30,918 nt of DNA from Candidatus Cloacimonadota bacterium. Its GTDB lineage: Bacteria; Cloacimonadota; Cloacimonadia; Cloacimonadales; TCS61. Each line of letters starts with the position of its first letter. Position 1 is the first letter of the stretch. The stretch lies in assembly GCA_030445745.1 (NCBI GenBank), contig JASUTE010000022.1:1-30918 (forward strand), given 5' to 3'. Shown in pieces: positions 4,549 to 26,912 of the stretch. The notes under the pieces are model-generated. The model was not told the DNA's origin, ran no database searches, and saw only the letters and a list, made by a program, of their open reading frames with translations. Position numbers and translations under genes: made by a program.

Positions 4549-5937
4549 GTGGTGAAGGAAATGTCAAACAAATTTGCAAATAAGCTAAAAGTTAGTTTGG
4601 TGGCTTTGTTGGCGTTCAGCTTTGTGTGTTTAACAGCTTTTCAGCCTAGTCGCCAGAACTTTAGCAGTCGCTATGAATATGCTTTGTATAGATCTTGGCA
4701 GAGGAAAGCAGCCCATTTGGAAATGCTTTCGGCTCAAATAAAACCAGAGGTAGTAGTGCAAAAATTTCGTACTGCCGATTCCAAGCTGGTAGAAGTGCAG
4801 TATGATTGGGAAGAGCAGCGTATTTATGGACAAAAAGAGGTAATTAGTCTTCCCTTTCCGGCCAATATGCAGCAGCATAAAGTGATTTTGGAAAATTTTC
4901 TCTATCGTTTGAATTGTGCCCAAAAACTATTTTTGCAAAACATGCTGCAAAAAACTGAATTTAAGGTAAAATACAAGCAGGGCGGTTTGGATTCTTTGTG
5001 GTCAGATTTTGCCGAACCCCGGTTTGAGATCCAAACAATAAAATGGCAGCATAGCCAGGATTCCTTAAAATTCCAGCTGAATTCATTCTCGGGCCAGCAG
5101 CTTACTATCGAATTTCCTATTTCCTTCCAATTTTCAGTATATTTGGATGAATGGAAAGAACAAACTACGAAAGTTGTACCTGAAATTGAAACAGTTACTA
5201 CCACACCCCAAATTCCCACAACACAAGAAACTTCTCCTGCGAAACTTCCTTTGGTGGAATTTCTGTATAGCACTTACCAAAACCAGTTTCGGCGCGAACT
5301 GATGAACAATAAACTAACCGATATAGAGCATTTTCTGGTAACGGAGTTTCCTAAACATAGGTTAACTAGGCAAGAAAATAACTATTATTTGGAAAATGAC
5401 GCAGAATTTTTGGGGTTGGGCAATTTTGTGGCTGTTCAAGTAAAGCGAAATAATGACAGCTGGGATATTGAAGCCTCACCCTATTACAATCTAATTGGTG
5501 ATTATTTAAAACTAAGCAGTCATGATAGTTTGGAGATTGGTTTAGTGGATAAAGCAGCTTTAAAACAGGTAGCAGGATATTTTCCACAGCTTTTGTATAT
5601 GCATCGTAGTTTGGGAACTAAGTTGTTCAATTTTCTTCTGATACCAGATGAGGTTCCTACCACTTTATTGATTCATAATGGTAAACGTCAGCGACTGGAT
5701 TTTGCCAGTTATGATGATCTTTTATTGCGCTTGCATAGTTATTGGAAAAAGCGTGAGATATTTTTTTCTTTGCAGGATATTCGCCAGATGAATGGGTTTA
5801 TTGAATTCAAAGGCATGTTGGCAGCTGTTGGCAAAGATAAATACGATTGGGCTGAAATTAGATTTCATTTGAATAAGGAATACAAGATCGATTTGGTGAT
5901 GATGAGTTTACACGTCGATAAAAAGATAGAAAGGTGA
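4549..5937 (+). CDS. Signal-anchored or exported protein of unknown function
   Basis: About 460 residues. A hydrophobic stretch near the N terminus (VSLVALLAFSFVCLTAF) is a signal peptide or anchor. It is followed by a glutamine- and aromatic-rich globular region to about residue 215, a Thr/Pro linker (TVTTTPQIPTTQETSPA, about 220-237), and a second domain of about 220 residues ending DLVMMSLHVDKKIER. The two-domain layout with a flexible linker suits an envelope protein. The start is uncertain: GTG 4549 and GTG 4552 lack a ribosome binding site, while ATG 4561 has GAAGGA almost touching it. TatD begins 4 bases after the stop, so the two are likely cotranscribed. I do not recognise the family. 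Confidence 0.7.
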   Translation: MVKEMSNKFANKLKVSLVALLAFSFVCLTAFQPSRQNFSSRYEYALYRSWQRKAAHLEMLSAQIKPEVVVQKFRTADSKLVEVQYDWEEQRIYGQKEVISLPFPANMQQHKVILENFLYRLNCAQKLFLQNMLQKTEFKVKYKQGGLDSLWSDFAEPRFEIQTIKWQHSQDSLKFQLNSFSGQQLTIEFPISFQFSVYLDEWKEQTTKVVPEIETVTTTPQIPTTQETSPAKLPLVEFLYSTYQNQFRRELMNNKLTDIEHFLVTEFPKHRLTRQENNYYLENDAEFLGLGNFVAVQVKRNNDSWDIEASPYYNLIGDYLKLSSHDSLEIGLVDKAALKQVAGYFPQLLYMHRSLGTKLFNFLLIPDEVPTTLLIHNGKRQRLDFASYDDLLLRLHSYWKKREIFFSLQDIRQMNGFIEFKGMLAAVGKDKYDWAEIRFHLNKEYKIDLVMMSLHVDKKIER

Positions 5938-5941
5938 GAAA

Positions 5942-6703
5942 ATGAGGATTTTTGAAACACATGCCCACTTAGATTTTCCCGATTTCGATAAAGACCGTGA
6001 GCAAATTATTACAGCTTCCCAAAAAGAAGGTGTGGAATATATCGTGAATATTGGTGTGGGAAAAGAGAGCTGCGAAAAAAGTGTATTATTAGCTAACAAA
6101 CACGAGCAAATTTATGCTGCAGTGGGGTTTCATCCACACAATGCAGCCGAATATAATGAAAAATTAATTCGTAAATTGGCTAGGAATGAGAAAGTAGTGG
6201 CGATTGGTGAGATAGGGTTGGACTATTACCGTATGCGTAATACCAAGAAAACACAGTTGGAAACTTTTGAAAAACAGATAGCTTTGGCGCAAGAACTGAA
6301 ATTGCCGATTGTTATTCACGACAGAGATGCCCACCAGGATTGCCTGAAAATTTTGGATAAATACAATCCTACCAAGCTGGTATTTCACTGCTATACCGGC
6401 GATGTGCTGTTTGCACAAGAGGTGCTGGCACGAGGCTGGAATATCTCTTTCACGGGGATAATAACCTTTAAAAATTCTCACTTACCAGATATAGTGCGGA
6501 TGGTTCCTGCAGATAGATATTTTGTGGAAACAGATTCGCCCTATCTTTCGCCTGTTCCTAAGCGCGGACGTCGCAATTCACCGCTGCACCTTAGATACAC
6601 CATAGAAAAACTGGCGGAAATAAGGGGTATAACTCCTAAGATGGTAGCTGCACAAACTTTCAAAAATGCAGCAGATTTTTTCTTGGAAAAACAGAATAGC
6701 TAA
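5942..6703 (+). CDS. tatD: TatD-family metal-dependent hydrolase (deoxyribonuclease)
   Basis: A 253-residue TIM-barrel amidohydrolase with the full TatD motif set: THAHLDF at residues 6-12 (HxH metal ligands), AIGEIGLDYYR (catalytic Glu), LPIVIHDRDA (His), VFHCYTGD (His) and FVETDSPYLSP (Asp), then the family signature KRGRRNSPLHL. TatD enzymes are cytoplasmic 3'-5' exonucleases or DNases implicated in DNA repair and turnover. The length is normal for the family. The start follows AAAGGTGA 4-5 bases downstream of the previous stop, so it is probably in an operon with the unknown exported protein. Confidence 0.93.
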   Translation: MRIFETHAHLDFPDFDKDREQIITASQKEGVEYIVNIGVGKESCEKSVLLANKHEQIYAAVGFHPHNAAEYNEKLIRKLARNEKVVAIGEIGLDYYRMRNTKKTQLETFEKQIALAQELKLPIVIHDRDAHQDCLKILDKYNPTKLVFHCYTGDVLFAQEVLARGWNISFTGIITFKNSHLPDIVRMVPADRYFVETDSPYLSPVPKRGRRNSPLHLRYTIEKLAEIRGITPKMVAAQTFKNAADFFLEKQNS

Positions 6704-6736
6704 AATTATCTTGCCAAATTAGGAAATGATAATTTT
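6702..6736. repeat. AT-rich inverted repeat between tatD and the ferredoxin gene
   Basis: AAAATTATC (6702-6710) is repeated in inverse as GATAATTTT (6728-6736), a perfect 9-bp stem with a 17-base loop. The loop contains TTGCCA (6711-6716), a possible -35/-33 element for the ferredoxin gene at 6776. It could be a weak terminator for tatD or an operator overlapping a promoter. The stem has a single G-C pair, so structure alone is not persuasive. Confidence 0.35.
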
Positions 6737-6775
6737 TTGGGAAATAATGTAATAGAAACTGATTAGGAGGAAACT

Positions 6776-6946
6776 ATGGCTGTAAAAATTAACAAAGAAA
6801 CCTGTATTGGTTGCGCTGCTTGTGTAGAAACCTGCCCTGTAGAAGCACTTTCTATGCAAAATGATAAAGCAGTGGTGAACGAAGAAGAATGCATCGATTG
6901 TGGAGCTTGTGTAGACGCATGTTCCGTTGGTGCTATCACTCAGTAA
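6776..6946 (+). CDS. 2[4Fe-4S] bacterial-type ferredoxin
   Basis: A 56-residue protein starting at an ATG preceded by TAGGAGGAAA at ideal distance. It carries two cysteine clusters: C10-x2-C13-x2-C16-x3-C20-P and C39-x2-C42-x2-C45-x3-C49. Cross-ligation (C10, C13, C16 with C49; C39, C42, C45 with C20) would bind two [4Fe-4S] clusters. The second cluster ends in Cys-Ser instead of the common Cys-Pro. It is a low-potential cytoplasmic electron carrier of the kind used by pyruvate:ferredoxin oxidoreductase and hydrogenases in anaerobes, which fits a fermentative lifestyle. It is monocistronic: a terminator follows 20 bases after the stop. Confidence 0.95.
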   Translation: MAVKINKETCIGCAACVETCPVEALSMQNDKAVVNEEECIDCGACVDACSVGAITQ

Positions 6947-6965
6947 TTTTTTGAAATTAAAACTG

Positions 6966-7000
6966 GCCGATTCGGGTAAACCGGATCGGCTATGTTTTTA
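6966..7000 (+). terminator. Rho-independent terminator after the ferredoxin gene
   Basis: GCCGATTCGG (6966-6975) pairs with CCGGATCGGC (6981-6990), a 10-bp stem with one T-G wobble and loop GTAAA. It is followed by TATGTTTTTA. The ATG inside this tail (6992) is in frame with coaX but belongs to the terminator, not to the gene start. Confidence 0.8.
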
Positions 7001-7051
7001 TATAGATTTCTTTACTTGACTATTTTTAGCCACCTTAAGAAGTGTGGAGCT

Positions 7052-7828
7052 ATGAAAAGAAATAACTTTGTTTTAGATATAGGCAATAGCCATATTGTAG
7101 CGGCTGTTTTCCAGAATAGCAAAATGCTGCGTTCTTGGCGTTTTGCAACCGATAAAACTAAAACTAAAGATGAGTACGGCGTTATAATAAACTCTTTTTT
7201 TTCCAATTTAAATTTAGAAATACAGCAGATAGATAGAGCAGCTATCTCTTCTGTGGTGCCAGTTCTAACCGGTGTTTTCGAGAAAATGTTTACCGAAGCT
7301 GGCATAGAGAAAATTACTTTAGTTTCAGCCTATACTCCTTTAGGACTGCGCTTTCCTATGTCCGATCCTGGCTTTGTAGGAGCCGATTTGGTAGTAAATG
7401 CCTTTGCTGCCAAAGAAAAATATCAACAGAATTGCATAGTTTGCGATTTTGGTACAGCAACTACTATGCAGTTGGTTGGCAAGGATGGTTTTTTTTATGG
7501 AACTGTAATTATGCCTGGTGTTATGATATCTGCTACACGACTTTTCGATAAAGCTGCTTTGCTCACCAATATCGATTTGGAAGCTCCAACTACACTTTTG
7601 GGAACTAATACACAAGATTCTTTGTTGAGCGGTATAATTCGAGGAAATGCTTTTATGATAGATGGTTTTATTAGAAAAATTAAAGAAGAGCACTCAAACC
7701 TGAAACCAATTAAAGTGATAGCTACCGGAGGAATTTCCCAACTTATTTGCCAGCAATCGGAAGAGATAGATGAAATTGATGAGAATTTGACCCTGACAGG
7801 ATTAAATCGCATTTGCGAAAGGGAATAA
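7052..7828 (+). CDS. coaX: Type III pantothenate kinase
   Basis: This catalyses the first step of coenzyme A synthesis, pantothenate to 4'-phosphopantothenate, in the cytoplasm. I place the start at ATG 7052, with GGAG 3-6 bases upstream, giving 258 residues, the normal CoaX length. The upstream ATG at 6992 lies in a terminator and would add 20 unrelated residues. ASKHA-fold motifs are present: LDIGNSHIVAAVF at residues 8-20 (phosphate 1), PGFVGADLVVNA (the GxDR-like substrate region, here GADL), VCDFGTATTMQLV (phosphate 2) and GTVIMPGVMIS (pantothenate/adenosine region). A typical GADR motif reads GADL here, a small deviation. TTGACT at 7015-7020 might be a promoter element. sprA starts 10 bases after the stop. 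Confidence 0.92.
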   Translation: MKRNNFVLDIGNSHIVAAVFQNSKMLRSWRFATDKTKTKDEYGVIINSFFSNLNLEIQQIDRAAISSVVPVLTGVFEKMFTEAGIEKITLVSAYTPLGLRFPMSDPGFVGADLVVNAFAAKEKYQQNCIVCDFGTATTMQLVGKDGFFYGTVIMPGVMISATRLFDKAALLTNIDLEAPTTLLGTNTQDSLLSGIIRGNAFMIDGFIRKIKEEHSNLKPIKVIATGGISQLICQQSEEIDEIDENLTLTGLNRICERE

Positions 7829-7838
7829 TCCTTTTTTG

Positions 7839-10800
7839 ATGAAAAAATATATCTTGTTAATAACAACGGTAATATTGACCCTGAATTTAGCTGCAAAGGT
7901 CTTTTTACCTGACTATTCATTGTCTGGTTATGTGCCAGTGAAACAGAATCAATTGGATGTTTACAAAACAAGCAATAAATATAAGTTATATCAAGATAAA
8001 ACCAATTTTTTGCCAGGTTTTGAAGTTTATACCTTGCGCGAGATTGATTACGATAAGGGTGTGGTGAAATTAACAGCCAAATATGGTAATAAATACCAGC
8101 TGTATCCCGAGGTATATATTGATTTGGATGACTATTTGGAAATGGATTTTAAGACTACCTACCACGATCTACTTTACAACAAAAGTTTGGAACTTTTAGA
8201 AGAAGAAGATCGCACTTCTGGAGAGGGGATTATTAAGGATATCGTAATAAAAATGCCAAAAATAGCCAAGCAATCGCGCACTGTTCGCAGGATTTTTGGT
8301 GGTGATAAAGCCGGTAGCCTTAGTTTGGATGGTAATCAAAAAATAACCTTTGCCGGTAGTAGCACTACGCGTGAGAATGCTGAACAAACTGAAGATAACC
8401 AGCGCAGTGATTTTAATTTAGAGATGCGCCAGGAGATGAACTTACGCCTGCGCGGTACCATTGGGGAAAAAATTCATGTGGATGTAAACCATTCTTCTGG
8501 TGGTGAAGATGATTTTTTTTCCGAACCCAGCGAAATAAAAATTCGTTATGAAGGTTTCGAAGATGAAGTGGTTAAATCGGTAGAATTGGGAAATATTTCC
8601 TTAGCTCTGCAGGGTTCCAATTTTATCAGTTATTCTATTTCTTCCGAAGGCCTTTTTGGGGTAAAATCGGATATGGAATTTGGCGATTTGAAATTAACTT
8701 CGATTATTGGTAAAGATGAGGCCCAAAAAAGTACGCAGAAATACACAGGCACTTCTCAAGCAGATTCTACAGTAATAGAGAGCAGGAATTTTGTTAATTA
8801 TTCCCACTATTTTATTGCCGATCCCTATAACTTGTTTGCTTTTTACAATAGCGAAGATCCTAATGCTGATCAATACCCTGATGGCTGGATAGACAATGCT
8901 ATTAAGGTAGATGAACAGGGTGCTTGGCTGGTGCCTGCCGGTGTGCCGGGAATGGGACAAAATCTGCTTCCTAAAGATGGTACGGACGTAAATGTTTATT
9001 TGGATAATGATAACGCAAACGATAATATCACTGCTATAGAAGGTACTGCTGTAAACGAAGACGGAACTTTTTATTTTGATCAGTTAATTGAGGGACGCGA
9101 CTACACTGTTAATTACGATACGGGGCTTATTACTTTTAGCGTTACTATAAATCAGCGTTATAGCATAGGGATAACCTATACTCGTAACGATGGTACAATG
9201 GTTCCGACCCCTAGTGGCGATGGATTGAAAGTAAAATTGATAAAAGAGAAAAACCAGGATGTAAATAGCCCCTATTGGAATCAACAGGTGCGTAATATTT
9301 ATGATTTGGGTATGCAGAATATTAAAAACGAAGGTTTCGACCTGAATGTTTTCAATTACAATGAAAATGACAATACTAGGAATTATGATGTGCCATCTGA
9401 TGTGCCTTTAAATGATGCAGAAATAGTAACTTACAACGATTATTTGCGACTTGACAGCAACGGCGATGGTGTGGTTAATGGTGATGATGCCACAGTTAAT
9501 TTGCAATCCGGTTATATTATTTTCCCATTTCTAAAACCGTTTGCGCCTTTGGGCGATGCAATAATCTACGAAGAAGAAGTGGTAAACTACGATGAATTCA
9601 AGATGAATATTGCTGTAAAAGGGCAGGTGGGAAGGGACCAAATATCTCTGGGACAGATGAATATCTTGCCAGGCAGTGTAGTAGTAAAATTAACAGAACC
9701 TGTTAATAAAACCTTGAAAGAAAACGTTGATTACATAGTCGATTATGACTTCGGTACGGTTACCCTGCTGTCTCCAGAAGCAAAAGATCCCAATGCTAAA
9801 ATCGAGATTGACTATCAATTTAAACCGCTTTTTGCTGTGGAAAGCAAGACTATTATGGGGGTACGAGCAGATTGGGAATTTAATCCCAACCTTAAATTAG
9901 GTGGTACTTTTATTTATCACTCGGAAAAGGTTTCAGATGACCGTCCCAAAATTGGTAATGAAAACTTTAGTATTATCTTAGCAGATCTGGATGGGAGAGC
10001 TGAATACGAAACTCCCTTCTTAACAAAATTAATTGATTGGTTCCCACTTATTAAAACTGATGCAGAATCGAAGGTAACTTTAAATGGCGAAGTTGCCATG
10101 AGTATTCCCAATATTTATGGGAATCCTGACCAAGACAACATCAATGAGGCTTATATAGATGATATGGAATCGATTTTGGACAATTATCCGCTAGGTATCA
10201 CTAGAAGAGCATGGGTGCGAGGAAGTAAACCATTCAACTACAACCTGCCGCGCGCAGACATAAATTGGTATAATCCTACCAATATTTATGCTCGCGATGT
10301 GTATGATCCCAATTCCCTTTCGGAAGATGAGGAAGATGAAAAAATCTCGGTTCTTACCTGTAAATTAGATCCACCAGATGTGGGTAACCCGGGTTTGGAT
10401 AATAAATATTGGGGTGGTTTGATGAAATATTTGGGTAATCAGTTGGATTTTTCCGATAAAAAATATATCGAAGTGCTGGTAAAAGTTGATAGTATTGCTG
10501 GTTCCCAGCCACCTGTTACCATGCATGTGGATTTGGGAGATATAAACGAGGATTTTTATACAGAATTTGGCGGCGAAGGGAAGCTAAACACCGAAGATGG
10601 GGTAACAGGCCGACCCAAAGATGGTATTTTAGATTACGATGAAGATGTGGGGTTAGACGGAATACCAAATGGCGAAGCTGGTGATGACCCCAATGACAAT
10701 TTTGATAATAATAAAGATGGGAACGGCGATTATCCACATATTAATGGTTCAGAAAATAACAGCTTATTAGATACCGAGGATTTGGATGGAAATGGTTCTT

Positions 10801-13800
10801 TGAACATGGCAGATATCTATTTTGAATATAGCTTAAGTTTGAAAGATTCACTCTATTTGCAAAGTGAATATAAAGGTTGGCGCTTATACCGAATTCCATT
10901 GCAAGATGAAGACAACTATTCCATTGTGAGCAATGACGTAGGAATAGAGCCAAATTATAAAAAGATTAGCTATGCTCGAATTTGGTTTGAGGTAGAGGAA
11001 CTTTCCCGAGTACGTATTGTAAATTTAGATTTAGTTGGGAATAAATGGGAAGAAGGTTTCATTAAAGATGAAGATGATAATATCATTAGCGTAGAGGAGT
11101 TACAGAACAACAGTGAAAAAATGTTGGTTGGAATAGTGGACAACCAAAGAAGTCCGCATTACCAGCCAGCTCCAGGTAGTGTGATAAAAAAGAATGGTGA
11201 AAAAACACTGGAACAATCTCTTTATATCGATTATGAAAATTTACAACCTGGGCATCATGGATTGGCTCATCAAAAATTTCGAGAATCTACTAATCTACTA
11301 AGTTATAATAAAATAAAATTCTGGATATATCCAGAAGCAGCCCAGAACCAGATCATAGAAGATGATTCTTTAACCCACGATCTAATTATTCGTATCGGTG
11401 CTGATTCTTTAAACTATTACGAGGTGAGAAAATCATTCACAGCGCGTGAGTATTTAGCAGAAATGAATAAATCAGGTTGGATGAACCTGGAGATAGATTT
11501 TTCTGACCTTACCAAGATTAAATCCCCATCCCAACAAGATTCTTTAATAACAGAAAACAATTTTGTATATTACTACAAAGATGGAATTCGTTATGGAATG
11601 AAACGGGAACCTACCCTTTCGGTTATCAAAGAGCTTGCTGTAGGAATTCAACAGAATACAGAAGCAACTGAGAGTTTCAGTGGGCGTATCTATTTTGATG
11701 ATATTCGGGTGGCAGATCCCTATGAGGAGATCGGTTTTGCTAGCCAAGCTTCCTTACATACCACACTGGCAGATTTTTCTACATTGGATGTAGATTTGAA
11801 TTGGAAAACCCAAAACTTTCAGAACAATGCTAGCAGAAGACGTAATGTTTCCAATTCTAGCGAAACTATAAGTTTAAATATCACTAATAAATATTTCTTA
11901 GATAAATTTTTTCCAGCAGATTGGGGGCTTAGCATGCCGCTTACACTTAGTCGCAATCAATCTTTGGGTACTCCACGTTTTAAGGCAAATTCAGATATCT
12001 TACGCGAAGATTTGAATAAAAAGGAAAAGGAGCAGGAGAAAGACAAATCACTTATCTACAATGCTAATGTAACTTTTCGGCAAAATAAAACCCCGCGCAG
12101 TAAGATTTTAGCATATACTTTAAAAAATACTTCTGTTAGCGGGAATGTCCAAAAAAAACAGATTACCAGTCCTACTACGGCCGATACCACCACCACTTAT
12201 CGTCTTAGCCACAATTACGATCTTTCACTTCCTAAAGATGCACTAGATCTTAAATTGTGGGGTGATTATAAATTCTACTTCGCTCCTAATAAACTAGAAA
12301 ATTCATTAACTTACAACAACACTATTCCCAAGCGCTGGATGTGGGATACAACTTCCGATACTTTAAGCTATTGGAAACCCAGACCACAAACAGTAGAAAC
12401 CAAAACTTTAGAAACAGAAACATTTATTAAATATGATATTTTTTCGGATATAGCAGCTTCTTACGAGCTTAATACAACTCGAGATTTGATGCGTGAGAAT
12501 ACAAAAATTTCCTACATTGGCCAAGAGAAGGAAAGAACTCAAGTGATCGGATTGGACTACAATCCAGGATATTTCGACAAAATATTTACCTTAAGTTCTA
12601 CAGCTGATGTTACCTATCGAGAACAGCACAAAAAGATTTCACAGTCCAGTGAAGAAGAGGAAGAACAATACATTTATGAAGGTAGTGTCAATCGTTCTCT
12701 GGGTGGTAGCTTTACCTTGAAGAATAAACAAATTTTCAGCAGCTGGGCTTCCAAACTGGCTAAAACGGAAAACAAGCAAAATACAATTCCCCCCGAAGAT
12801 CGTTCCGCTACTTCCCAGCAAACCCAACCCGATACTTCTGGCTTACCAAGCCAAGAAAGAGGTCAGACAGCGCAACAGCAACAGGAGAATTATTTACCAA
12901 CAACAACCGGAACAGGTGCAGAAAATACAGATGAGCAAACACCAGCTGAGCAAACTGAATCTGGTAAAACTTCTCAAACACCAGCTGATACAACCAAGGC
13001 ACAACCACCTGAAACTGAAGAAAAAACAGGCAATCGAATATTTTACCATGTCATTTCCTACTTAGCACGCATAGATAATTTTAGATTTAATTATGATAAT
13101 AATTACAAAACAGATTACGAAAATAGAGAAGAGCGCCCTGACTTTGTTTACCAATTAGGTTTGCCGCATATTCTGCCAGATGAAGAAATAAAAGTAAAAA
13201 CCAATAACGACCGTTTTAATGTTTCGACTGGTTTGCTGGTATTGAATAATTTATCTACTACTTGGAATTTTTCCCATGAAATAAACAGAACTTTTGGTAA
13301 TACAGATAAAAAAACTATTAAAACTATTTTCCCCGATGTGAGTGTTACTCTTTCCGAATTTGAAAAGATAATCAAGGCGGAAAAGATTCTAACCAGCTCT
13401 CGCCTTACCAGCAGTTACACTGTTTCCAAAACTCAATCAGGAGATTTCAATTGGGAACAGCCACAAACAGAACAAACACAGCTGAATATGCGACCCCTGA
13501 TTTCCTGGAATGGAAACTGGGCAAACAATATAACCAGTAACCTGGCGTTAAATTATTCCGAAACGGAAAATCTTACTCATTACGAGACATATAATATCGT
13601 GCAAAATGAAACCAGGCAATCGCTTTCCAGTAATTTGGAATATACATTTTCTGCAGAAAGTGGGATAAAATTACCGTTGTTAGGGAAATTACGCTTTAAA
13701 AATGAATTTACAGCAGATCTCGATTTTAGTTTGGAAAAAACTTACAAAACCACCAAGGGTAATAACAAGACTAACATCGATACTGATAAGATCTCTTATT

Positions 13801-13943
13801 CGCTTACTCCAGGCGGTACTTATCGTTTCAGTAAGAATATCCACGGTGGTTTAGATATTCGCTACGATTGGAGTCATGACCAGAAAAAAGACCTGCTAAT
13901 TAAGACCTTTGAATTGAGTTTGTGGGTTGAAATATTATTCTAA
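7839..13943 (+). CDS. sprA: SprA/Sov-like giant outer-membrane protein, type IX secretion translocon
   Basis: About 2034 residues. The start is ATG 7839 (a TTG precedes it in frame); residues 1-20 (MKKYILLITTVILTLNLAAK) form a signal peptide. SprA hallmarks are present: LRGTIGEKIHVDVNHSS and repeated beta-barrel segments in the first 300 residues, the central ILADLDGRAEYETPFLT followed by NEAYIDDMES near residue 770, acidic Asp/Asn-rich loops (DSNGDGVVNGDD, DTEDLDGNGSLNMADIYFEY) and GRIYFDDIRVADP near 1285. In Bacteroidota, SprA is the 36-strand outer-membrane channel through which T9SS cargo leaves. It is somewhat shorter than the roughly 2400 residues usual there. Residues about 1645-1730 are a Gln/Pro/Thr-rich low-complexity insert. 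It fits with the two sorting-domain proteins in the window. It follows coaX by 10 bases. Confidence 0.88.
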   Translation: MKKYILLITTVILTLNLAAKVFLPDYSLSGYVPVKQNQLDVYKTSNKYKLYQDKTNFLPGFEVYTLREIDYDKGVVKLTAKYGNKYQLYPEVYIDLDDYLEMDFKTTYHDLLYNKSLELLEEEDRTSGEGIIKDIVIKMPKIAKQSRTVRRIFGGDKAGSLSLDGNQKITFAGSSTTRENAEQTEDNQRSDFNLEMRQEMNLRLRGTIGEKIHVDVNHSSGGEDDFFSEPSEIKIRYEGFEDEVVKSVELGNISLALQGSNFISYSISSEGLFGVKSDMEFGDLKLTSIIGKDEAQKSTQKYTGTSQADSTVIESRNFVNYSHYFIADPYNLFAFYNSEDPNADQYPDGWIDNAIKVDEQGAWLVPAGVPGMGQNLLPKDGTDVNVYLDNDNANDNITAIEGTAVNEDGTFYFDQLIEGRDYTVNYDTGLITFSVTINQRYSIGITYTRNDGTMVPTPSGDGLKVKLIKEKNQDVNSPYWNQQVRNIYDLGMQNIKNEGFDLNVFNYNENDNTRNYDVPSDVPLNDAEIVTYNDYLRLDSNGDGVVNGDDATVNLQSGYIIFPFLKPFAPLGDAIIYEEEVVNYDEFKMNIAVKGQVGRDQISLGQMNILPGSVVVKLTEPVNKTLKENVDYIVDYDFGTVTLLSPEAKDPNAKIEIDYQFKPLFAVESKTIMGVRADWEFNPNLKLGGTFIYHSEKVSDDRPKIGNENFSIILADLDGRAEYETPFLTKLIDWFPLIKTDAESKVTLNGEVAMSIPNIYGNPDQDNINEAYIDDMESILDNYPLGITRRAWVRGSKPFNYNLPRADINWYNPTNIYARDVYDPNSLSEDEEDEKISVLTCKLDPPDVGNPGLDNKYWGGLMKYLGNQLDFSDKKYIEVLVKVDSIAGSQPPVTMHVDLGDINEDFYTEFGGEGKLNTEDGVTGRPKDGILDYDEDVGLDGIPNGEAGDDPNDNFDNNKDGNGDYPHINGSENNSLLDTEDLDGNGSLNMADIYFEYSLSLKDSLYLQSEYKGWRLYRIPLQDEDNYSIVSNDVGIEPNYKKISYARIWFEVEELSRVRIVNLDLVGNKWEEGFIKDEDDNIISVEELQNNSEKMLVGIVDNQRSPHYQPAPGSVIKKNGEKTLEQSLYIDYENLQPGHHGLAHQKFRESTNLLSYNKIKFWIYPEAAQNQIIEDDSLTHDLIIRIGADSLNYYEVRKSFTAREYLAEMNKSGWMNLEIDFSDLTKIKSPSQQDSLITENNFVYYYKDGIRYGMKREPTLSVIKELAVGIQQNTEATESFSGRIYFDDIRVADPYEEIGFASQASLHTTLADFSTLDVDLNWKTQNFQNNASRRRNVSNSSETISLNITNKYFLDKFFPADWGLSMPLTLSRNQSLGTPRFKANSDILREDLNKKEKEQEKDKSLIYNANVTFRQNKTPRSKILAYTLKNTSVSGNVQKKQITSPTTADTTTTYRLSHNYDLSLPKDALDLKLWGDYKFYFAPNKLENSLTYNNTIPKRWMWDTTSDTLSYWKPRPQTVETKTLETETFIKYDIFSDIAASYELNTTRDLMRENTKISYIGQEKERTQVIGLDYNPGYFDKIFTLSSTADVTYREQHKKISQSSEEEEEQYIYEGSVNRSLGGSFTLKNKQIFSSWASKLAKTENKQNTIPPEDRSATSQQTQPDTSGLPSQERGQTAQQQQENYLPTTTGTGAENTDEQTPAEQTESGKTSQTPADTTKAQPPETEEKTGNRIFYHVISYLARIDNFRFNYDNNYKTDYENREERPDFVYQLGLPHILPDEEIKVKTNNDRFNVSTGLLVLNNLSTTWNFSHEINRTFGNTDKKTIKTIFPDVSVTLSEFEKIIKAEKILTSSRLTSSYTVSKTQSGDFNWEQPQTEQTQLNMRPLISWNGNWANNITSNLALNYSETENLTHYETYNIVQNETRQSLSSNLEYTFSAESGIKLPLLGKLRFKNEFTADLDFSLEKTYKTTKGNNKTNIDTDKISYSLTPGGTYRFSKNIHGGLDIRYDWSHDQKKDLLIKTFELSLWVEILF

Positions 13944-14006: not shown

Positions 14007-14936
14007 ATGGTAACAAAGGCGCAGAAATTTAGGTTGGGTATTTTCATTTTTTTCGCTTCCATTTTATTAATAATTTTTTTGGTAATGGTGGCTGGAAATC
14101 AATTTATGCAGCAAAAAGATATTTATTACGTAAATTACCAAGATACTTCTGTGAATGGGTTGCAAATTGGCGGTGCTGTGAAGTATTATGGTCTTGATAT
14201 TGGCCGGGTGGAAGATATCAAGATTTCCAAGGAAGATATCAATAATGTAATTGTGAAAATAAGTATTAAAGAAGGAACTCCCATAAAATCTGATATGAAA
14301 GCTCAATTAATCGCAGTGGGCATAACCGGGCTGAAACAAATTGAATTAATAGGTGGTACCAACCAAGCCGAGACCTTAGAACCGGGTGATTTCATAAAAC
14401 CAGGTAAATCTACCTTAGATAATATTACTGGGAAAGCAGAAATAGTAGCTGCGAAATTGGAATTAGTTTTAACAAATTTGGCTAAAATGACTAATGAGGA
14501 GAACCGCATTAAACTTTCGCGAATACTTACCAATACAGATAGCCTTATTCATCAAAATAGACAATCTTTTACAAACATGATGACCAATTTAGATTCTACT
14601 AGTTTATATCTAGCTAAATTCATGAAAAATTCCAATCTAGCGATGGATAAATTCAATACTCTATTGCGTTCACCTGAGTTACAGAATATTCTTGATAATA
14701 TCAGCAAGACCTCCAGCGATATTGCTCAGGCTGATTTAAAGAAAATTATGAACGATCTAAATGAGGCAATTTACAATGCCAATGAGGCTTTTTTGCATAT
14801 CGACCTAACTGTATTGAAAGGGAGAGACGATCTGTTAAATAGCTTAAATATACTAAAAGAAACTATAGATAATCTTAATGATTTTTCCAGACAGATAAGT
14901 GAAGATCCAACTTTGCTAATTAGGCCAAAAAAATAG
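14007..14936 (+). CDS. mlaD: MCE-domain periplasmic lipid-binding protein (MlaD-like)
   Basis: A 309-residue protein anchored by one N-terminal membrane helix (LGIFIFFASILLIIFLVMVAG, residues 10-30), with an MCE domain at about 38-120: YYVNYQDTSVNGLQIGGAVKY, then GLDIGRVEDIKIS, then the characteristic IAVGITGLKQIELIGG. The C-terminal 180 residues are helical and coiled-coil-like, as in MlaD homologues where helices line a central lipid channel. MCE proteins form hexamers that pass phospholipids between the inner and outer membranes. It is the first gene of a four-gene unit with the auxiliary lipoprotein (9-base gap), permease and ATPase. The ribosome binding site is AAGGAG. Confidence 0.93.
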   Translation: MVTKAQKFRLGIFIFFASILLIIFLVMVAGNQFMQQKDIYYVNYQDTSVNGLQIGGAVKYYGLDIGRVEDIKISKEDINNVIVKISIKEGTPIKSDMKAQLIAVGITGLKQIELIGGTNQAETLEPGDFIKPGKSTLDNITGKAEIVAAKLELVLTNLAKMTNEENRIKLSRILTNTDSLIHQNRQSFTNMMTNLDSTSLYLAKFMKNSNLAMDKFNTLLRSPELQNILDNISKTSSDIAQADLKKIMNDLNEAIYNANEAFLHIDLTVLKGRDDLLNSLNILKETIDNLNDFSRQISEDPTLLIRPKK

Positions 14937-14945
14937 GGGAATCTA

Positions 14946-17063
14946 ATGAAAAAAATGTTAATATTACTTATGCTAACTTTAGTCTTGCTAACTGGGTGTT
15001 TTTCTAGTCCTATTATAAACAATAATTACTATATTTTGGAATATTATCAACATTCCGAAAAACCAGAACTAAAACAAGATAAACCTATTAAAGCTACGGT
15101 GATGGTACCAAATGCCAATATTTCACAAACATATAATCGTAAAAAAATTGTGCTGCGCCATTTTGGTCCTAAAATCACCTATTCCCAAAATGATTTCTGG
15201 GGCGTGGAATTGGATGAAATAGTACCTTCATTAACAATTCAACGTTTAAAAAACTATAGAATATTTTCACGGATAGACAGAGAATTTCTCAATGAGCGAC
15301 CTCAATACAGTATTCGTATCACCATTAATAATGTAGAATTATATGAATCAGAGTATTTCCAACAAGCACATCTGAATATAGAACTTCAAATAATCGAAAA
15401 TGCAACTGGTGAAATATTAGTACAGCATAGTTCCAATAGAGAAGAGGTAATGTTAGAAAATGATATTGCCACCTTTGTACAGATGATAAACGAGATGATA
15501 CTAGCCGAAATTGATAAGTTTTCTGCCAAAATATTAGATTATTTTAAAGGCGTCCAAGTTCCTATTGAAGGCTTGGTAGAAGAAGCACAAAAAGATTCTT
15601 TACTTTTAGAAGAGGAAATTGCTAAAAGTGGAGGTACTGGACTACTGTTGCTGCCAGCTATTTCTCAAAGTGAAAATGAACCTCAGTTTATTGTAAGGGA
15701 CAAGTATGGATATGAGCAGATTGGAGATATGGGAGTGCCTTTACCATTGCCAGCTGGAGAATATACCATTCTTTATGGTTCGGGTAACCAAAATCAGCTG
15801 ATGGAAAAGAAGAATGTAGAGATAATTCCGCATTACAAAACAATTGTGGAGCCAGAATGGGGATGCTTGGTTGTGGATATTGTGGATGAAAGGCGTAACT
15901 TTGCCAGAGTTCGTTATGAGATATTTGAATTGGAAAGCGGAGAAAGCTATGGCTCCGATTTTCCCGTAGAAGAGGAATTGGGAGAACAGCAAAAATATTG
16001 GATATTGAAACCAGGATGGTACAAAATTACTATAAATAATGAACCCTTTAATACTTATCGTAATTTTGCCACTGTTTATGTGGAAAAGGGACAATTCCAA
16101 AAATTTACCATAGTTGTAGAAAGGGATGACGAGGAGAACCCCACCAATATGATAGGAGCTGGAGTTCTGGAAGAAGATATTTTAGAAACTTCACAACAAG
16201 CCTTAAGCTTTTCGAGTGCGATTCATGGTAACTTCAATATGAATAGCAATAATAGAAATGAAAAAGATGAAATAGAAACCACTATCACCTTCAATACACA
16301 ATTAGATAATCACCTTATTTATGATCAATATCCAATGCACTATAATATGCGTAATATAATAGAAACAGGTATTACTCATAGCAAGGATAATACCTTTAGA
16401 ATTTCTGCTGATGATTTTGATATTAAGAATACATTCGTTTATTATATGGTAAAGAATATTGGTTTTTACGGGCGTGCTGATGCCAATACTCATTTTTTTG
16501 AGGAAAAATACTATGCTTCCGATATTTTTAACTACAAAAAGATAGATGAAAATGGACAACTAGTGGAAATGGGGCAAAATGTTGAGGAAGTAGTGATTAA
16601 AGATAGGTTTTATCCTATAACCTTGAAAGAGGGACTTGGTTTAAACTGGCGATTATTAAATCAACCAAAAGCTCAGATTAATTTAAGAACCGGTTTTGGG
16701 ATGCGACAGGAATTTAACAAAGAAGTATATAGTTTAACGGGCACAGAAGTTGAAAATAATGTTGAATACAAGATTTTTTCCAGAGTAGAAGATGTATATA
16801 AAAATGGAACAGAGATTTCTTTAGTAGCTAATTTTAAATTGCCCTATGATATAACTTACAATACCAATTTCGATTATCTATTGCCGTTCGATAAACATAA
16901 AGATTATTCCATGGAATGGGAAAATCTGTTTAACTTAAAGTTGCTAAAATATGTTTCAATAGATTATCGGCTGAAATTAGAAAACCGTAAACAAGAAAAT
17001 AGCGATACCTATATCTCTACCGATCACAGCCTATTTTTACGTTTGACTTATTTCCTGCGATAA
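14946..17063 (+). CDS. Lipoprotein: PqiC-like ABC-transport auxiliary domain fused to an outer-membrane beta-barrel-like domain
   Basis: 705 residues. The lipobox LLTGC gives lipidated Cys18. Residues about 20-200 resemble the ABC-transport auxiliary lipoprotein family (PF03886, PqiC/YmbA type): NYYILEYY, YRIFSRIDREFL, YSIRITINNVELYE, then strand-helix to EMILAEIDKFSAKILDYF. Residues about 205-415 are beta-rich, PEGA-like modules (LPLPAGEYTILYG; WILKPGWYKITIN). Residues about 430-705 alternate polar and hydrophobic positions with many aromatics, like DUF3078/DUF481 outer-membrane barrels (KNIGFYGRADANTHFFE, GLGLNWRLLNQ, LLKYVSIDYRLKLENR, HSLFLRLTYFLR). PqiC-type lipoproteins are usually only about 190 residues. 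Its place between the MCE gene and the permease points to lipid traffic at the outer membrane. The C-terminal residue is Arg, not the usual Phe/Trp of barrels. Domain names for the middle and end are by eye. Confidence 0.8.
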   Translation: MKKMLILLMLTLVLLTGCFSSPIINNNYYILEYYQHSEKPELKQDKPIKATVMVPNANISQTYNRKKIVLRHFGPKITYSQNDFWGVELDEIVPSLTIQRLKNYRIFSRIDREFLNERPQYSIRITINNVELYESEYFQQAHLNIELQIIENATGEILVQHSSNREEVMLENDIATFVQMINEMILAEIDKFSAKILDYFKGVQVPIEGLVEEAQKDSLLLEEEIAKSGGTGLLLLPAISQSENEPQFIVRDKYGYEQIGDMGVPLPLPAGEYTILYGSGNQNQLMEKKNVEIIPHYKTIVEPEWGCLVVDIVDERRNFARVRYEIFELESGESYGSDFPVEEELGEQQKYWILKPGWYKITINNEPFNTYRNFATVYVEKGQFQKFTIVVERDDEENPTNMIGAGVLEEDILETSQQALSFSSAIHGNFNMNSNNRNEKDEIETTITFNTQLDNHLIYDQYPMHYNMRNIIETGITHSKDNTFRISADDFDIKNTFVYYMVKNIGFYGRADANTHFFEEKYYASDIFNYKKIDENGQLVEMGQNVEEVVIKDRFYPITLKEGLGLNWRLLNQPKAQINLRTGFGMRQEFNKEVYSLTGTEVENNVEYKIFSRVEDVYKNGTEISLVANFKLPYDITYNTNFDYLLPFDKHKDYSMEWENLFNLKLLKYVSIDYRLKLENRKQENSDTYISTDHSLFLRLTYFLR

Positions 17064-17065
17064 AT

Positions 17066-18112
17066 ATGAAAACTAAATATATTCTACCAGAAAGTTTAGA
17101 TAAAAATAGTGTACCTCAGGTATATGAGCAGTGTAGTAAAAACGAAGATCTTCTGTACCTGGATTTTTCTCGGGTAGTTTCTATCGATAGTGCTGGCGTT
17201 GCTTTGGTAGATTATCTTAAAAACAAAATACCTCAGCTACAATTGCTAAATATCTCGGATTCAATAACTGAAACTATGCAGACATTTAAGACCGAGTTAG
17301 TTCCCGAAACTGATTCTCGAAAAGAAAACTATTTTGAGAGAATAGGTGAAAAAACAGTAGAATTTGCAAAATCCTTCAAAGAAGCACTTTTTCTTACTGC
17401 CGATATAAGTTTCTGGTCTTTTATCAGTATTTTTAATAGGAAGGGACATCGCAAAGGTGCCGTTGTACAGCAGAGTTTACTTATTGGAGTAGATACTTTG
17501 GGAATTATAAGCTTATTATCGATTATCTTAGGACTAATAATTGCCTTGCAATCTGCTGCCCAGCTTAGACAGTTTGGAGCTAATATTTTCATAGCTGATC
17601 TTATAGCAATTGCTATGGTGCGCGAGGTAGGACCAATGATGACAGCAATAATTCTGGCCGGACGTAGTGGTTCTGCTATAGCTTCCGAAATTGCTACTAT
17701 GAAGGTGACCGAAGAATTAGACGCCTTAAGGATGATGGCGATAAATCCGGTTCGCTATGTTATGGTTCCCAAATTTAGTGCTATAACTATTTGTATGCCC
17801 TTTTTGGTTATTTGGTCTACAGCAATTGGAATTTTGGGTGGACTGGTGATAGCTGTTTTCTATTTAGATCTCAGTGTAACAGCGTATATGACAGAGATTT
17901 TTGAAGTGCTTACTCTGAAAGATATTCTGGTAGGGTTGAGCAAAAGTATTATATTTGCCTGGGTAATAGTGATTATTGGTAGTTATTTTGGTTTGAATGT
18001 AGAAGGTGGTGCCGAAGGAGTAGGCAAAGTTACTACAAAATCGGTTGTCGTTTCTATCTTTATGGTCATTTTTTTTGATGTTATATTTAGTCTGTTGTAT
18101 TTGGGGGGCTAG
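17066..18112 (+). CDS. mlaE: MlaE-type ABC permease with N-terminal STAS domain
   Basis: 348 residues. Residues 1-85 are a STAS domain (LLYLDFSRVVSIDSAGVALVDYL gives the LDF...IDSAG signature around residues 32-44; printed in pieces elsewhere as D41-S42-A43-G44). Residues about 100-348 are the MlaE permease: five to six membrane segments, with IAIAMVREVGPMMTAIILAG and GRSGSAIASEIATMKVTEE, the best conserved parts of the family. In E. coli the STAS protein MlaB is a separate subunit that stabilises the ATPase; here it is joined to the permease. S42 is at the STAS phosphoserine-like position. The gene starts 2 bases after the lipoprotein stop and its own stop overlaps the ATPase start by one base. 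Confidence 0.93.
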   Translation: MKTKYILPESLDKNSVPQVYEQCSKNEDLLYLDFSRVVSIDSAGVALVDYLKNKIPQLQLLNISDSITETMQTFKTELVPETDSRKENYFERIGEKTVEFAKSFKEALFLTADISFWSFISIFNRKGHRKGAVVQQSLLIGVDTLGIISLLSIILGLIIALQSAAQLRQFGANIFIADLIAIAMVREVGPMMTAIILAGRSGSAIASEIATMKVTEELDALRMMAINPVRYVMVPKFSAITICMPFLVIWSTAIGILGGLVIAVFYLDLSVTAYMTEIFEVLTLKDILVGLSKSIIFAWVIVIIGSYFGLNVEGGAEGVGKVTTKSVVVSIFMVIFFDVIFSLLYLGG

Positions 18113-18849
18113 TGGAACCGATAATCAAAGTTTCTAACTTAACAGCTAAATTTGATAGTACAACTATTTTAAGTAATATCAATATCGAAATATTTCCTAA
18201 ACAAATAACAGTGATACTGGGTAAAAGCGGCTGTGGAAAAACTACCTTATTAAAAAATATCTTAAAACTATACACACCCAGTGCAGGTACAGTAGAAATG
18301 TTTGGTCAAGATATTACCAAAATGGATGAAGAGAGCCTTGAGACAATTTTGCAGAAAATTGGAATGCTTTTTCAGAATGGAGCACTATTGAATTCACTGG
18401 ATATTTACAACAATATCAGAATTCCTTTGGAACAGCATACCAACCTTCCCGATGAGGTGATAGATAGAATGATAAGTGCAAAATTGAAATTGGTAGGATT
18501 AGAAAATGCTGAAAAAATGCTGCCTTCGGAACTCTCGGGAGGTATGAAGAAGCGAGCTGCCCTGGCTAGAGCGATGATCTTAGATCCTAATATTTTGTTT
18601 TGTGATGAACCCTCTGCTGGGCTGGATCCGGTTACCAGTGCAAATTTGGATAAACTGCTGCTGAAACTAAAAAAGCAGCTTAATATGACCCTGGTGATAG
18701 TAACTCACGAATTAGCCAGTATCCATCGCATAGCTGACCACATCATCTTTTTAGAAAATGGCAAGGTTGGATTTTCGGGTAAATTGGCAGCTGTTATGCA
18801 ATCTAATAATTCTGATATTAAAAACTTTTTTGCATCTGGTAAATTCTAA
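18112..18849 (+). CDS. mlaF: MlaF-type ABC transporter ATPase
   Basis: A 245-residue cytoplasmic ATPase that powers the MCE lipid transporter. It starts at GTG 18112, sharing one base with the TAG stop of the permease; a G-rich stretch just upstream can serve as ribosome binding site. All ABC motifs are in place: Walker A GKSGCGKT at residues 37-44, Q-loop Gln88, signature LSGGM at 141-145, Walker B ILFCDE at 161-166, D-loop SAGLDP, and H-loop His199 (VTHE). The length fits the family, without the long C-terminal tail seen in some MlaF proteins. It ends the four-gene operon; the next gene is 34 bases away and could still be cotranscribed. Confidence 0.94.
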   Translation: MEPIIKVSNLTAKFDSTTILSNINIEIFPKQITVILGKSGCGKTTLLKNILKLYTPSAGTVEMFGQDITKMDEESLETILQKIGMLFQNGALLNSLDIYNNIRIPLEQHTNLPDEVIDRMISAKLKLVGLENAEKMLPSELSGGMKKRAALARAMILDPNILFCDEPSAGLDPVTSANLDKLLLKLKKQLNMTLVIVTHELASIHRIADHIIFLENGKVGFSGKLAAVMQSNNSDIKNFFASGKF

Positions 18850-20040: not shown

Positions 20041-20508
20041 ATGAAAAAATTCTTCTCAATTATTGTAATTCTGGTTGCTGCTGGATTAACTTTTGCAGAA
20101 ACAGTTCAACTGAATAACTTTAACCAAATTATGCAAGCTTTAGAAAATGGTGAACAAGTTAGAGTGGTAGCACATTACGGTAAATGCCAGTTAATAAGTG
20201 ATAACGAGATTAAAGAAAGAAGTCCCAATGCTATTGGTGGTATGCCAGTGGAAGCTTTTGAATATTTTGCACCAATGGCGGTTGGTAATCCCAAAGCTTT
20301 TGTGTCTTTTTCCCATTCTGCGCTTATAAATTATGGTGGATTTATTTACAACTATGTAAAGTTCAAAATTACTGAAGATAACAAGGTAAAAATTACAGCC
20401 CAGTATGTAGATCCCCAAAATTACCAGCTAAAGATGGATGAAGCTTTTCATAGTATTATAAACAATGGTGAAAATAAGGGTGCCGTTTATTTTTATAAAA
20501 ATATGTAG
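20041..20508 (+). CDS. VirK-family exported protein
   Basis: A 155-residue protein with a signal peptide (MKKFFSIIVILVAAGLTFA, residues 1-19). The mature part opens with NFNQIMQALENGEQVRVVAHYGKC, matching the opening of VirK-family proteins (a helix, then GxxVRVVxxYxKC). GGMPVEAFEYFAP and FVSFSHSALI continue the family pattern, with beta strands to the end. VirK proteins are periplasmic and of unclear biochemical function; the name comes from a plasmid virulence locus and does not imply virulence here. The start is 3 bases after the previous stop, with GGGGGT as a weak ribosome binding site, so it closes the operon that begins with the MCE genes or the metallopeptidase. Confidence 0.75.
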   Translation: MKKFFSIIVILVAAGLTFAETVQLNNFNQIMQALENGEQVRVVAHYGKCQLISDNEIKERSPNAIGGMPVEAFEYFAPMAVGNPKAFVSFSHSALINYGGFIYNYVKFKITEDNKVKITAQYVDPQNYQLKMDEAFHSIINNGENKGAVYFYKNM

Positions 20509-25818: not shown

Positions 25819-25847
25819 TTGCCAAGTTTTATAATAAAGATAGGTTG
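25819..25847 (+). promoter_or_regulatory. Candidate promoter of the secreted endonuclease gene
   Basis: TTGCCA (25819-25824) is followed, 19 bases after its TTG, by TAGGTTG (25841-25847), like the TTG / TAnnTTTG pattern. A start near 25853 leaves just the ribosome binding site GAGGGAG (25862-25868) before the gene. A TATAAT at 25830-25835 has no partner -35 at usable spacing. Confidence 0.4.
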
Positions 25848-25874
25848 TCACAAAAGAGCGAGAGGGAGATGAGG

Positions 25875-26912
25875 ATGAGCAGGTATATTTTATTGATATT
25901 AGCGTTACTGTTGCTAGCTCAACTGGCAGCTCAAACAATTATAGGTGAAGGTTTGGTAGAGGAAGAGCTATTAAATTACGTAGTAGAAAACTATAAAACA
26001 AGCTCCACTTTGGGTTATACTAACTGCCGAGATGTCTTGTATTCCGAAATAGATTTGCAAGATGGAAATATTTTGGAGGGAATTTACTCTGGATATGCTA
26101 TTGAAATGGATTTGGAACAAGATCCCAGTAATTATGCATATCAAAATGACATAAACTGTGAACATAGTTGGCCGCAAAGTATGGGGGCCGGCAGTGAACC
26201 ACAGAAAAGTGATATGCATCATCTCTATCCTAGCCGGGCTCAAGTAAATTCATCACGGGGTAACTCTCCTTTCGCGGAAGTGGAAGATAGCCAAACTAAT
26301 AAGTGGTGGAAAAATGATTTCTATCTCATTGCCATTCCTCAGGAGGATATTGAGGACTATTCCGAGAGCGGTAATGACCAATTTGAACCACGCGAAATTG
26401 TAAAAGGAAATATTGCCCGTTCAATGTTTTATTTTTTTGCTATGTACCAGGATGCTGCTAACGAGAATTTTTGGCAGATACAAAAAGATGTTCTTTATGA
26501 TTGGCACTATGCCGATCCGGTAGATAGTAAAGAACAAGATCGTACTTGGGCAATTGCAGCATATCAGGATGATTGCCCTAATCCTTTTGTAGTAGATTCC
26601 ACTCTCGCTCGCCGGATCTGGTTTTATACTCCTACCAGTAACGATGAACAAGTTGTTACAGCACAACTATCTTTGCAGAATTATCCTAATCCTTTTAATC
26701 CACAGACTACCATTATTTTCAATATTCCCCAGCAACAAGAGGGAATTTTAAGCATCTATAATGTACGCGGACAGCAAATCTTAAGCAAGCAATTTTCAGC
26801 TGGTAAGCACCAATTTAGCTGGAATGGCCAGCAGTTAGCTTCGGGTGTGTATTTCTATAAGTTGGAAACATCTTCGGCTGTACTTTGCAAAAAGATGTTA
26901 CTATTGAAATAG
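25875..26912 (+). CDS. Secreted endonuclease I-family nuclease with type IX sorting domain
   Basis: About 345 residues from ATG 25875 (ATG 25869, two codons earlier, is equally possible). The signal peptide is MSRYILLILALLLLAQLAAQ. The catalytic part (about 25-255) belongs to the endonuclease I family (PF04231, beta-beta-alpha metal fold): NCEHSWPQSMG and SDMHHLYPSRAQVNSSRGN are the two active-site blocks, with WAIAAYQDD and VVDSTLARRIWF beyond. These enzymes cut DNA or RNA non-specifically, probably for nutrient gain outside the cell. The last 80 residues are a T9SS sorting domain: [41 protein letters not shown], and the end KKMLLLK. This matches the end of the broken gene at 1542-1817 and implies export through SprA. 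Confidence 0.9.
   Translation: MSRYILLILALLLLAQLAAQTIIGEGLVEEELLNYVVENYKTSSTLGYTNCRDVLYSEIDLQDGNILEGIYSGYAIEMDLEQDPSNYAYQNDINCEHSWPQSMGAGSEPQKSDMHHLYPSRAQVNSSRGNSPFAEVEDSQTNKWWKNDFYLIAIPQEDIEDYSESGNDQFEPREIVKGNIARSMFYFFAMYQDAANENFWQIQKDVLYDWHYADPVDSKEQDRTWAIAAYQDDCPNPFVVDSTLARRIWFYTPTSNDEQVVTAQLSLQNYPNPFNPQTTIIFNIPQQQEGILSIYNVRGQQILSKQFSAGKHQFSWNGQQLASGVYFYKLETSSAVLCKKMLLLK

Follow-up and report, generated by a model that had tools for sequence, protein, structure and literature searches.

Gene content of the locus

The window, by which we mean the whole 30,918-nucleotide stretch of Candidatus Cloacimonadota DNA that was analysed, carries an MCE operon on the forward strand, in which genes for MlaD, a 705-residue fusion protein, MlaE and MlaF follow one another tightly. 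The MlaD-type MCE protein (309 aa, 14007-14936) has an N-terminal transmembrane segment and a single MCE domain at residues 41-117 (PF02470, E 4.9e-13); it also matches the TIGR00996 MCE family over residues 12-297 (E 1.4e-19) and the PqiB model over residues 35-305 (E 2.4e-5), both under the curated cut-offs, and its C-terminal region is expected to be long and helical. No barrel was found on this MlaD: after the MCE domain, only MCE-family and PqiB models match, and no barrel family does. The fusion is encoded by a real gene, an open reading frame with an ATG start at 14946-17063 on the forward strand. It is followed by the MlaE permease (17066-18112, PF02405, E 8e-75), whose N-terminal part is STAS-like, with a weak match (E 0.011), and by the MlaF ATPase (18112-18849, PF00005, E 1e-31). 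The fused gene therefore lies between the MCE gene and the permease, as was originally read from the sequence.

Several other genes of the window deserve mention. Immediately upstream of the MCE operon is SprA, the type 9 secretion translocon (2035 aa, 7836-13943), an order that is kept in many Cloacimonadota relatives, and downstream lies a small exported protein with a VirK match (20041-20508, PF06903, E 8e-9). At 25845-26912 an Endonuclease I domain is joined to a Por_Secre_tail sorting domain, making this protein a likely T9SS substrate. A pectate-lyase-like reading frame (563-1360) overlaps a reading frame in another frame (1344-1817) that ends in a T9SS-type sorting tail; the two are apparently a single gene split by a frameshift, either genuine or made in assembly. 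Finally, the second half of an extended, 968-residue MutL/GlmL-family protein (26956-29862, PF13941) contains barrel-sandwich segments of biotin-lipoyl-like type.

Domain architecture of the fused lipoprotein

The 705-residue protein begins with a lipoprotein signal peptide (14946-14999) bearing the lipobox LLTGC, whose lipidated Cys 18 is invariant in two alignments of homologues (21 and 36 sequences). An ABC_trans_aux, or PqiC-type, domain follows at residues 27-200 (15024-15545). The PF03886 profile matches residues 50-185 (E 4e-8, 33.4 bits against a cut-off of 26) and all 21 members of a set of divergent homologues (E <= 0.1), and a profile of the domain aligns with the E. coli PqiC sequence, NYYxL and NxLW motifs included (E 0.024). 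The predicted fold agrees: residues 24-204 superpose on 6osx with a VIA Z of 18.8 (rmsd 1.9, 153 aligned), the E. coli PqiC match reaches 17.9, and the PqiC structures 6osx, 8q2d and 8q2c and XCC0632 (2iqi) all fall within this range of Z. As is characteristic of PqiC-type proteins, the lipobox is present and an MlaD gene lies directly upstream. Asp55 and Trp47, the conserved PqiC pore residues, are not conserved in the fused protein, which counts against the model proposed below. The aux fold has also been described as LptE-like (PMC10897342). An arrangement in which this domain plugs the barrel in the manner of LptD/LptE was considered and rejected, as a domain of 175 residues would be too large for a 12-strand barrel.

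A linker at residues 201-230 (15546-15635) is predicted to be disordered (pLDDT <50 over residues 206-228) and leads to a middle region that is predicted to form two beta-sandwich-like modules. The first, at residues 231-314 (15636-15887), was delimited by predicted secondary structure and could be placed in no family, while the second, at residues 324-407 (15915-16166), is also strongly conserved (e.g. GESYG, W.LKPG.YK, and NNEPFNTY). The original description of these two modules as PEGA-like has no support in the sequence, as a PEGA match was found in none of the 21 family members at E <= 0.1.

The C-terminal region, residues 419-705 (16200-17060), is confidently predicted to be a transmembrane outer-membrane beta-barrel. 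Folded alone with AlphaFold2, the last 292 residues gave a mean pLDDT of 88.7 and a pTM of 0.78. The full chain, run on a 36-sequence alignment, gave a mean pLDDT of 81 and a pTM of 0.43, values that support the single domains and not their mutual arrangement. All 50 of the VIA matches listed for the barrel alone are outer-membrane barrel proteins; the best solved match is the 12-strand channel Tsx (Z 14.9, rmsd 3.7, 207 aligned), followed among the matches listed by NanC, KdgM, EstA, OmpG, and OMPLA. These alignments cover residues 2-290 of the separately folded domain and run onto closed outer-membrane barrels, from which we infer that the predicted barrel is closed, and also its number of membrane strands. 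The model contains 16 strands, of which about 12 are amphipathic; the remainder make two hairpins that are polar, as extracellular loops would be. Hydrophobic alternation, averaged over the family and compared with shuffled sequences, is strong in the barrel (z 6.5) and at background in the aux domain (-0.6) and middle region (0.1). The predicted lumen side is strongly polar and charged, with inner faces rich in N, D, E, K, and R.

Profile evidence for the barrel is clearer at the level of the family than in the window protein. DUF3078 (PF11276) matches residues 446-519 of the window protein with 22.8 bits in hmmscan (E 1.3e-4), below the 25-bit cut-off, and with 27.7 bits, over that cut-off, at the same residues in a genome scan. 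DUF481 (PF04338), which we take to be an outer-membrane barrel family, gave no match to the window protein in the profile scan. Across the 21 divergent homologues, however, DUF3078 is matched in 19 (E <= 0.1, best 2.5e-9) and DUF481 in 18 (best 9e-12), such that the DUF3078/DUF481 character originally suggested for this region holds for the family, whereas the window protein itself shows only the borderline DUF3078 match. Searching the PDB by sequence with this protein alone returned nothing meaningful, our literature search found no function for DUF3078, and NCBIfam holds no name for the fused protein or for the separate barrel gene described below. The borderline score and the missing DUF481 match are what might be expected if the C-terminal region were a soluble, beta-rich domain outside the membrane. 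We consider this very improbable given two confident structure predictions, a list of structural matches comprising outer-membrane barrel proteins only, the family-level DUF481 and DUF3078 matches, and the strong amphipathic alternation. Thus, the central claim of the original prediction, that a PqiC-like lipoprotein and a C-terminal outer-membrane barrel are joined in one polypeptide, is supported by the PF03886 match, the PqiC fold, and the confident barrel prediction.

Distribution of fused and split forms

The closest named relatives of the fused protein (43-55% identity) come mostly from metagenome-assembled genomes of Candidatus Cloacimonadota, an uncultured phylum within the FCB group. 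Relatives were found with a 9-sequence alignment of closer homologues as the query against genome contigs; a single-sequence search of the same contigs gave no match. The family was matched in 111 of 124 Cloacimonadota genomes, which we count as 110 since one (G019) contains a barrel paralogue only. Beyond this phylum, sampling covered 199 Neomarinimicrobiota genomes, 16 of which have the family, as full-length fusions at 44-49% identity, with fragments in two. At nearly all loci uncut by contig ends the neighbours are MlaD, MlaE, and MlaF. One outgroup genome, G106, keeps the genes for MlaD, aux, and barrel together, but there the barrel gene is followed by unrelated genes and MlaE sits on a separate contig.

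Most families of the order encode the protein as a single chain. Several outgroup families (f6, f7, f12, and almost all members of f13) have its two halves as adjacent genes instead. The split order is MlaD, an aux lipoprotein of 200-217 aa, a 515-526 aa protein containing the two modules and the barrel, MlaE, and MlaF. The split barrel proteins start with their own hydrophobic signal peptide, as judged by eye, and one split barrel gene matches DUF481 above its cut-off (28.9 against 21.1). On the MlaE tree the fused and split states require three changes. One genome of f13 (G116) is fused, basal in that family, and unusually similar to the window protein (52%), possibly owing to transfer or a binning error. 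Separate halves thus do occur elsewhere, a finding that by the terms of the original prediction would tell against it only had the fusion been an isolated accident. The fusion is neither that nor a product of chance, because the family is conserved across the phylum. Frameshift, contamination, and accidental joining were likewise rejected, since the reading frame is intact and without internal stops in dozens of independent genomes. The one exception (L034 of G061, 5258-7495) carries a stop within its aux-coding part; this copy may be broken or misassembled.

Presence of the operon's own permease (called at E <= 1e-60) was compared with presence of the lipoprotein-barrel across the 124 genomes. 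Both are present in 106 and neither in 13, with the permease alone in one and the fusion alone in four; because the genomes are related, these counts are not independent. In the single permease-only genome (G089) the contig stops within the permease, and in the four fusion-only genomes the loci are at or near contig ends. Five genomes of one genus (G016, G019, G020, G025, and G027), 89-99% complete, are without both permease and fusion and keep a second, distant MlaE, which indicates that the operon was lost as a unit.

These patterns bear on whether the barrel belongs to MCE transport. It might instead share only transcript and chain with the PqiC-like half while its job lies elsewhere, as a porin or part of a surface structure. 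The genome does encode a 277-aa barrel-only relative (G000:C32, L106 5152-5985) with its own signal peptide and 26% identity to the C-terminal half, which has no Pfam match and lies away from MCE genes, elsewhere in the genome. Nevertheless, the halves stay adjacent even when split, the genes of the operon are lost together, and the fusion is repeated or retained over one phylum and part of a second, leaving an unrelated job for the barrel quite improbable.

Homologs of MlaA and MlaC were sought in the same 124 genomes and found in none, with E. coli and Caulobacter as positive controls. The genome contains a second MCE operon (G000:C6:21900-26540, L105 3901-8535), in which the gene for a 1002-residue protein comes after those for MlaF2 and MlaD2. 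The protein combines a peptidase-MA domain with a TolB-like propeller and, at its C-terminus, an Omp85 barrel whose profile match exceeds the cut-off (PF01103, E 5.5e-11). This protein is present in 119 of the 124 Cloacimonadota genomes and adjoins MlaD2 in 26 of 30 loci examined. Both MCE operons of the genome therefore have a barrel gene beside mlaD, an arrangement that is widespread in the phylum.

Comparison with known MCE systems

One of the two closest counterparts, together with Veillonella MlaD, is the Mla-Pqi chimeric system MpcEFDA of Brucella abortus, in which the PqiC-like MpcA co-purifies with MpcEFD (PMC12436622). Both systems have an MlaF ATPase, a STAS-like N-terminus on MlaE (weak here), a PqiC-like outer-membrane lipoprotein, and a long single-MCE MlaD (331 aa in Brucella), and both do without MlaA or MlaC homologs. 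They differ in gene order, as the lipoprotein gene lies between mlaD and mlaE here but comes last in Mpc, and in that MpcA is reported as a PqiC homolog without a barrel, whereas the present lipoprotein adds two beta modules and a barrel. E. coli PqiABC likewise pairs a PqiC-fold lipoprotein with an MCE needle; PqiC is an octamer about 100 Å wide with a 40 Å pore, and it tethers PqiAB to the membrane (PMC10897342). Unlike the present system, PqiABC has no ABC ATPase, PqiB has three MCE domains, and PqiC lacks extra domains.

Outer-membrane barrels on MCE systems have precedents of other kinds. Veillonella parvula also has MlaEFD without MlaA or MlaC and an outer-membrane barrel on an MCE system component (PMC10665443), but its barrel has 10 strands and sits on MlaD itself with no PqiC-like lipoprotein, whereas here the barrel is borne by the neighbouring lipoprotein. 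The MlaD barrel of Veillonella and other diderms was reported in 2023 to be completely absent from FCB and PVC MlaD (PMC10665443). In the chloroplast TGD1-TGD5 system, an MCE ABC transporter has an outer-envelope beta-barrel partner, TGD4 (PMC5948301); this is a separate, phosphatidic-acid-binding protein. Outside MCE transport, PelBC places a lipoprotein ring of related fold on an outer-membrane barrel (PMC12141448), and PelC matches the aux domain with a VIA Z of 10.7. PelB and PelC, however, are separate proteins, with 12 PelC per PelB barrel, and serve polysaccharide export.

Searches of open-access journal papers found no report of a PqiC-like-barrel fusion. The original prediction had described an outer-membrane solution without precedent in the E. 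coli systems. The arrangement does differ from E. coli Pqi, and a PqiC-like lipoprotein and barrel in one chain appears to be new, but barrel-bearing MCE systems as such were already known from Veillonella MlaD and from TGD4, the partner of TGD1-3.

A proposed barrel-anchored ring at the outer membrane

We hypothesize, with a probability of roughly 60%, that the products of the operon make up a trans-envelope lipid transporter of the Mpc/Pqi kind, in which a PqiC-like ring is anchored by the barrel and lipid does not pass through the barrel lumen. MlaE and MlaF would together act as the ABC transporter, with a hexamer of MlaD supplying the MCE ring and its needle. Under the outer membrane, on its inner face, copies of the 705-residue protein would assemble through their PqiC-like domains into a ring that takes the needle tip, and from this ring each chain would run via the flexible linker and the two beta-sandwich modules to the 12-stranded barrel, which would hold the ring to the outer membrane in addition to the lipid anchors. 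Such a system would work without MlaA and MlaC, with lipid probably entering or leaving where the ring meets the inner leaflet. We favour this path from needle through PqiC-type ring to barrel because its parts equal those of Brucella Mpc and because the E. coli PqiC octamer tethers PqiAB. Moreover, an even-stranded barrel would place both termini in the periplasm, matching the topology that the model requires. By our own estimate, eight barrels around a 100 Å ring would be geometrically possible. We know of no described precedent for eight barrels about one ring, which counts against the ring model. A hexameric ring of barrels was thought unlikely by the Veillonella authors (PMC10665443).

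The original prediction left the barrel's role as either a pore or an anchor. As a conduit, the barrel would let lipid, or some other hydrophobic substrate, travel from the ring to the outer leaflet or cell surface, either along its lumen or by way of a lateral gate. Tsx, NanC/KdgM, and FadL-type channels are indeed among the structural matches, as are PelC and PelB, and PelBC offers the example of a transporting barrel that bears a ring of lipoproteins of related fold (PMC12141448). Against this, about 12 predicted membrane strands around a polar, charged interior would make a bad path for phospholipid, and, Tsx apart, the channels match no better than OMPLA, which scores about the same. OMPLA is a 12-strand enzyme with no known transport lumen. 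The Veillonella authors likewise regarded their MlaD barrel as too narrow (PMC10665443). Since twelve strands around a polar interior would make a poor lipid channel, and in keeping with that similar view, we clearly favour anchoring or docking and regard the conduit as unlikely.

The substrate of a barrel-anchored transporter might also be something other than phospholipid, such as a different lipid of the envelope or a hydrophobic nutrient that the cell takes up, with the architecture unchanged. MCE systems elsewhere have been implicated in cholesterol and fatty acid import, the second MCE operon could cover housekeeping, and the present operon is wholly missing from some genomes. The absence of MlaA and MlaC, on the other hand, leaves a phospholipid-balance role to be filled, and we consider a different substrate improbable.

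Implications for MCE lipid bridges

With a barrel gene beside mlaD in both operons, we tentatively suggest that each MCE bridge in Cloacimonadota ends in a dedicated, mlaD-adjacent barrel, that the barrel reportedly missing from FCB MlaD has shifted to partner proteins, and that a barrel end is a general feature, a proposal that we hold as somewhat less probable than not. If true, a barrel end would be common to MCE bridges, and E. coli Pqi and Let would either lack it or meet the need otherwise.

For Pqi, Let, and the long-MlaD systems alike, it has yet to be explained how the MCE needle is joined to the outer membrane. The natural fusion described here provides genetic evidence that a PqiC-type domain acts jointly with an outer-membrane barrel, and it offers a single polypeptide on which this can be tested. 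The fused protein may also supply the barrel that FCB MlaD was reported to lack. More generally, the fusion suggests a possible means of fixing the lipid bridge at the outer membrane where the outer-membrane parts of the E. coli Mla system are missing.
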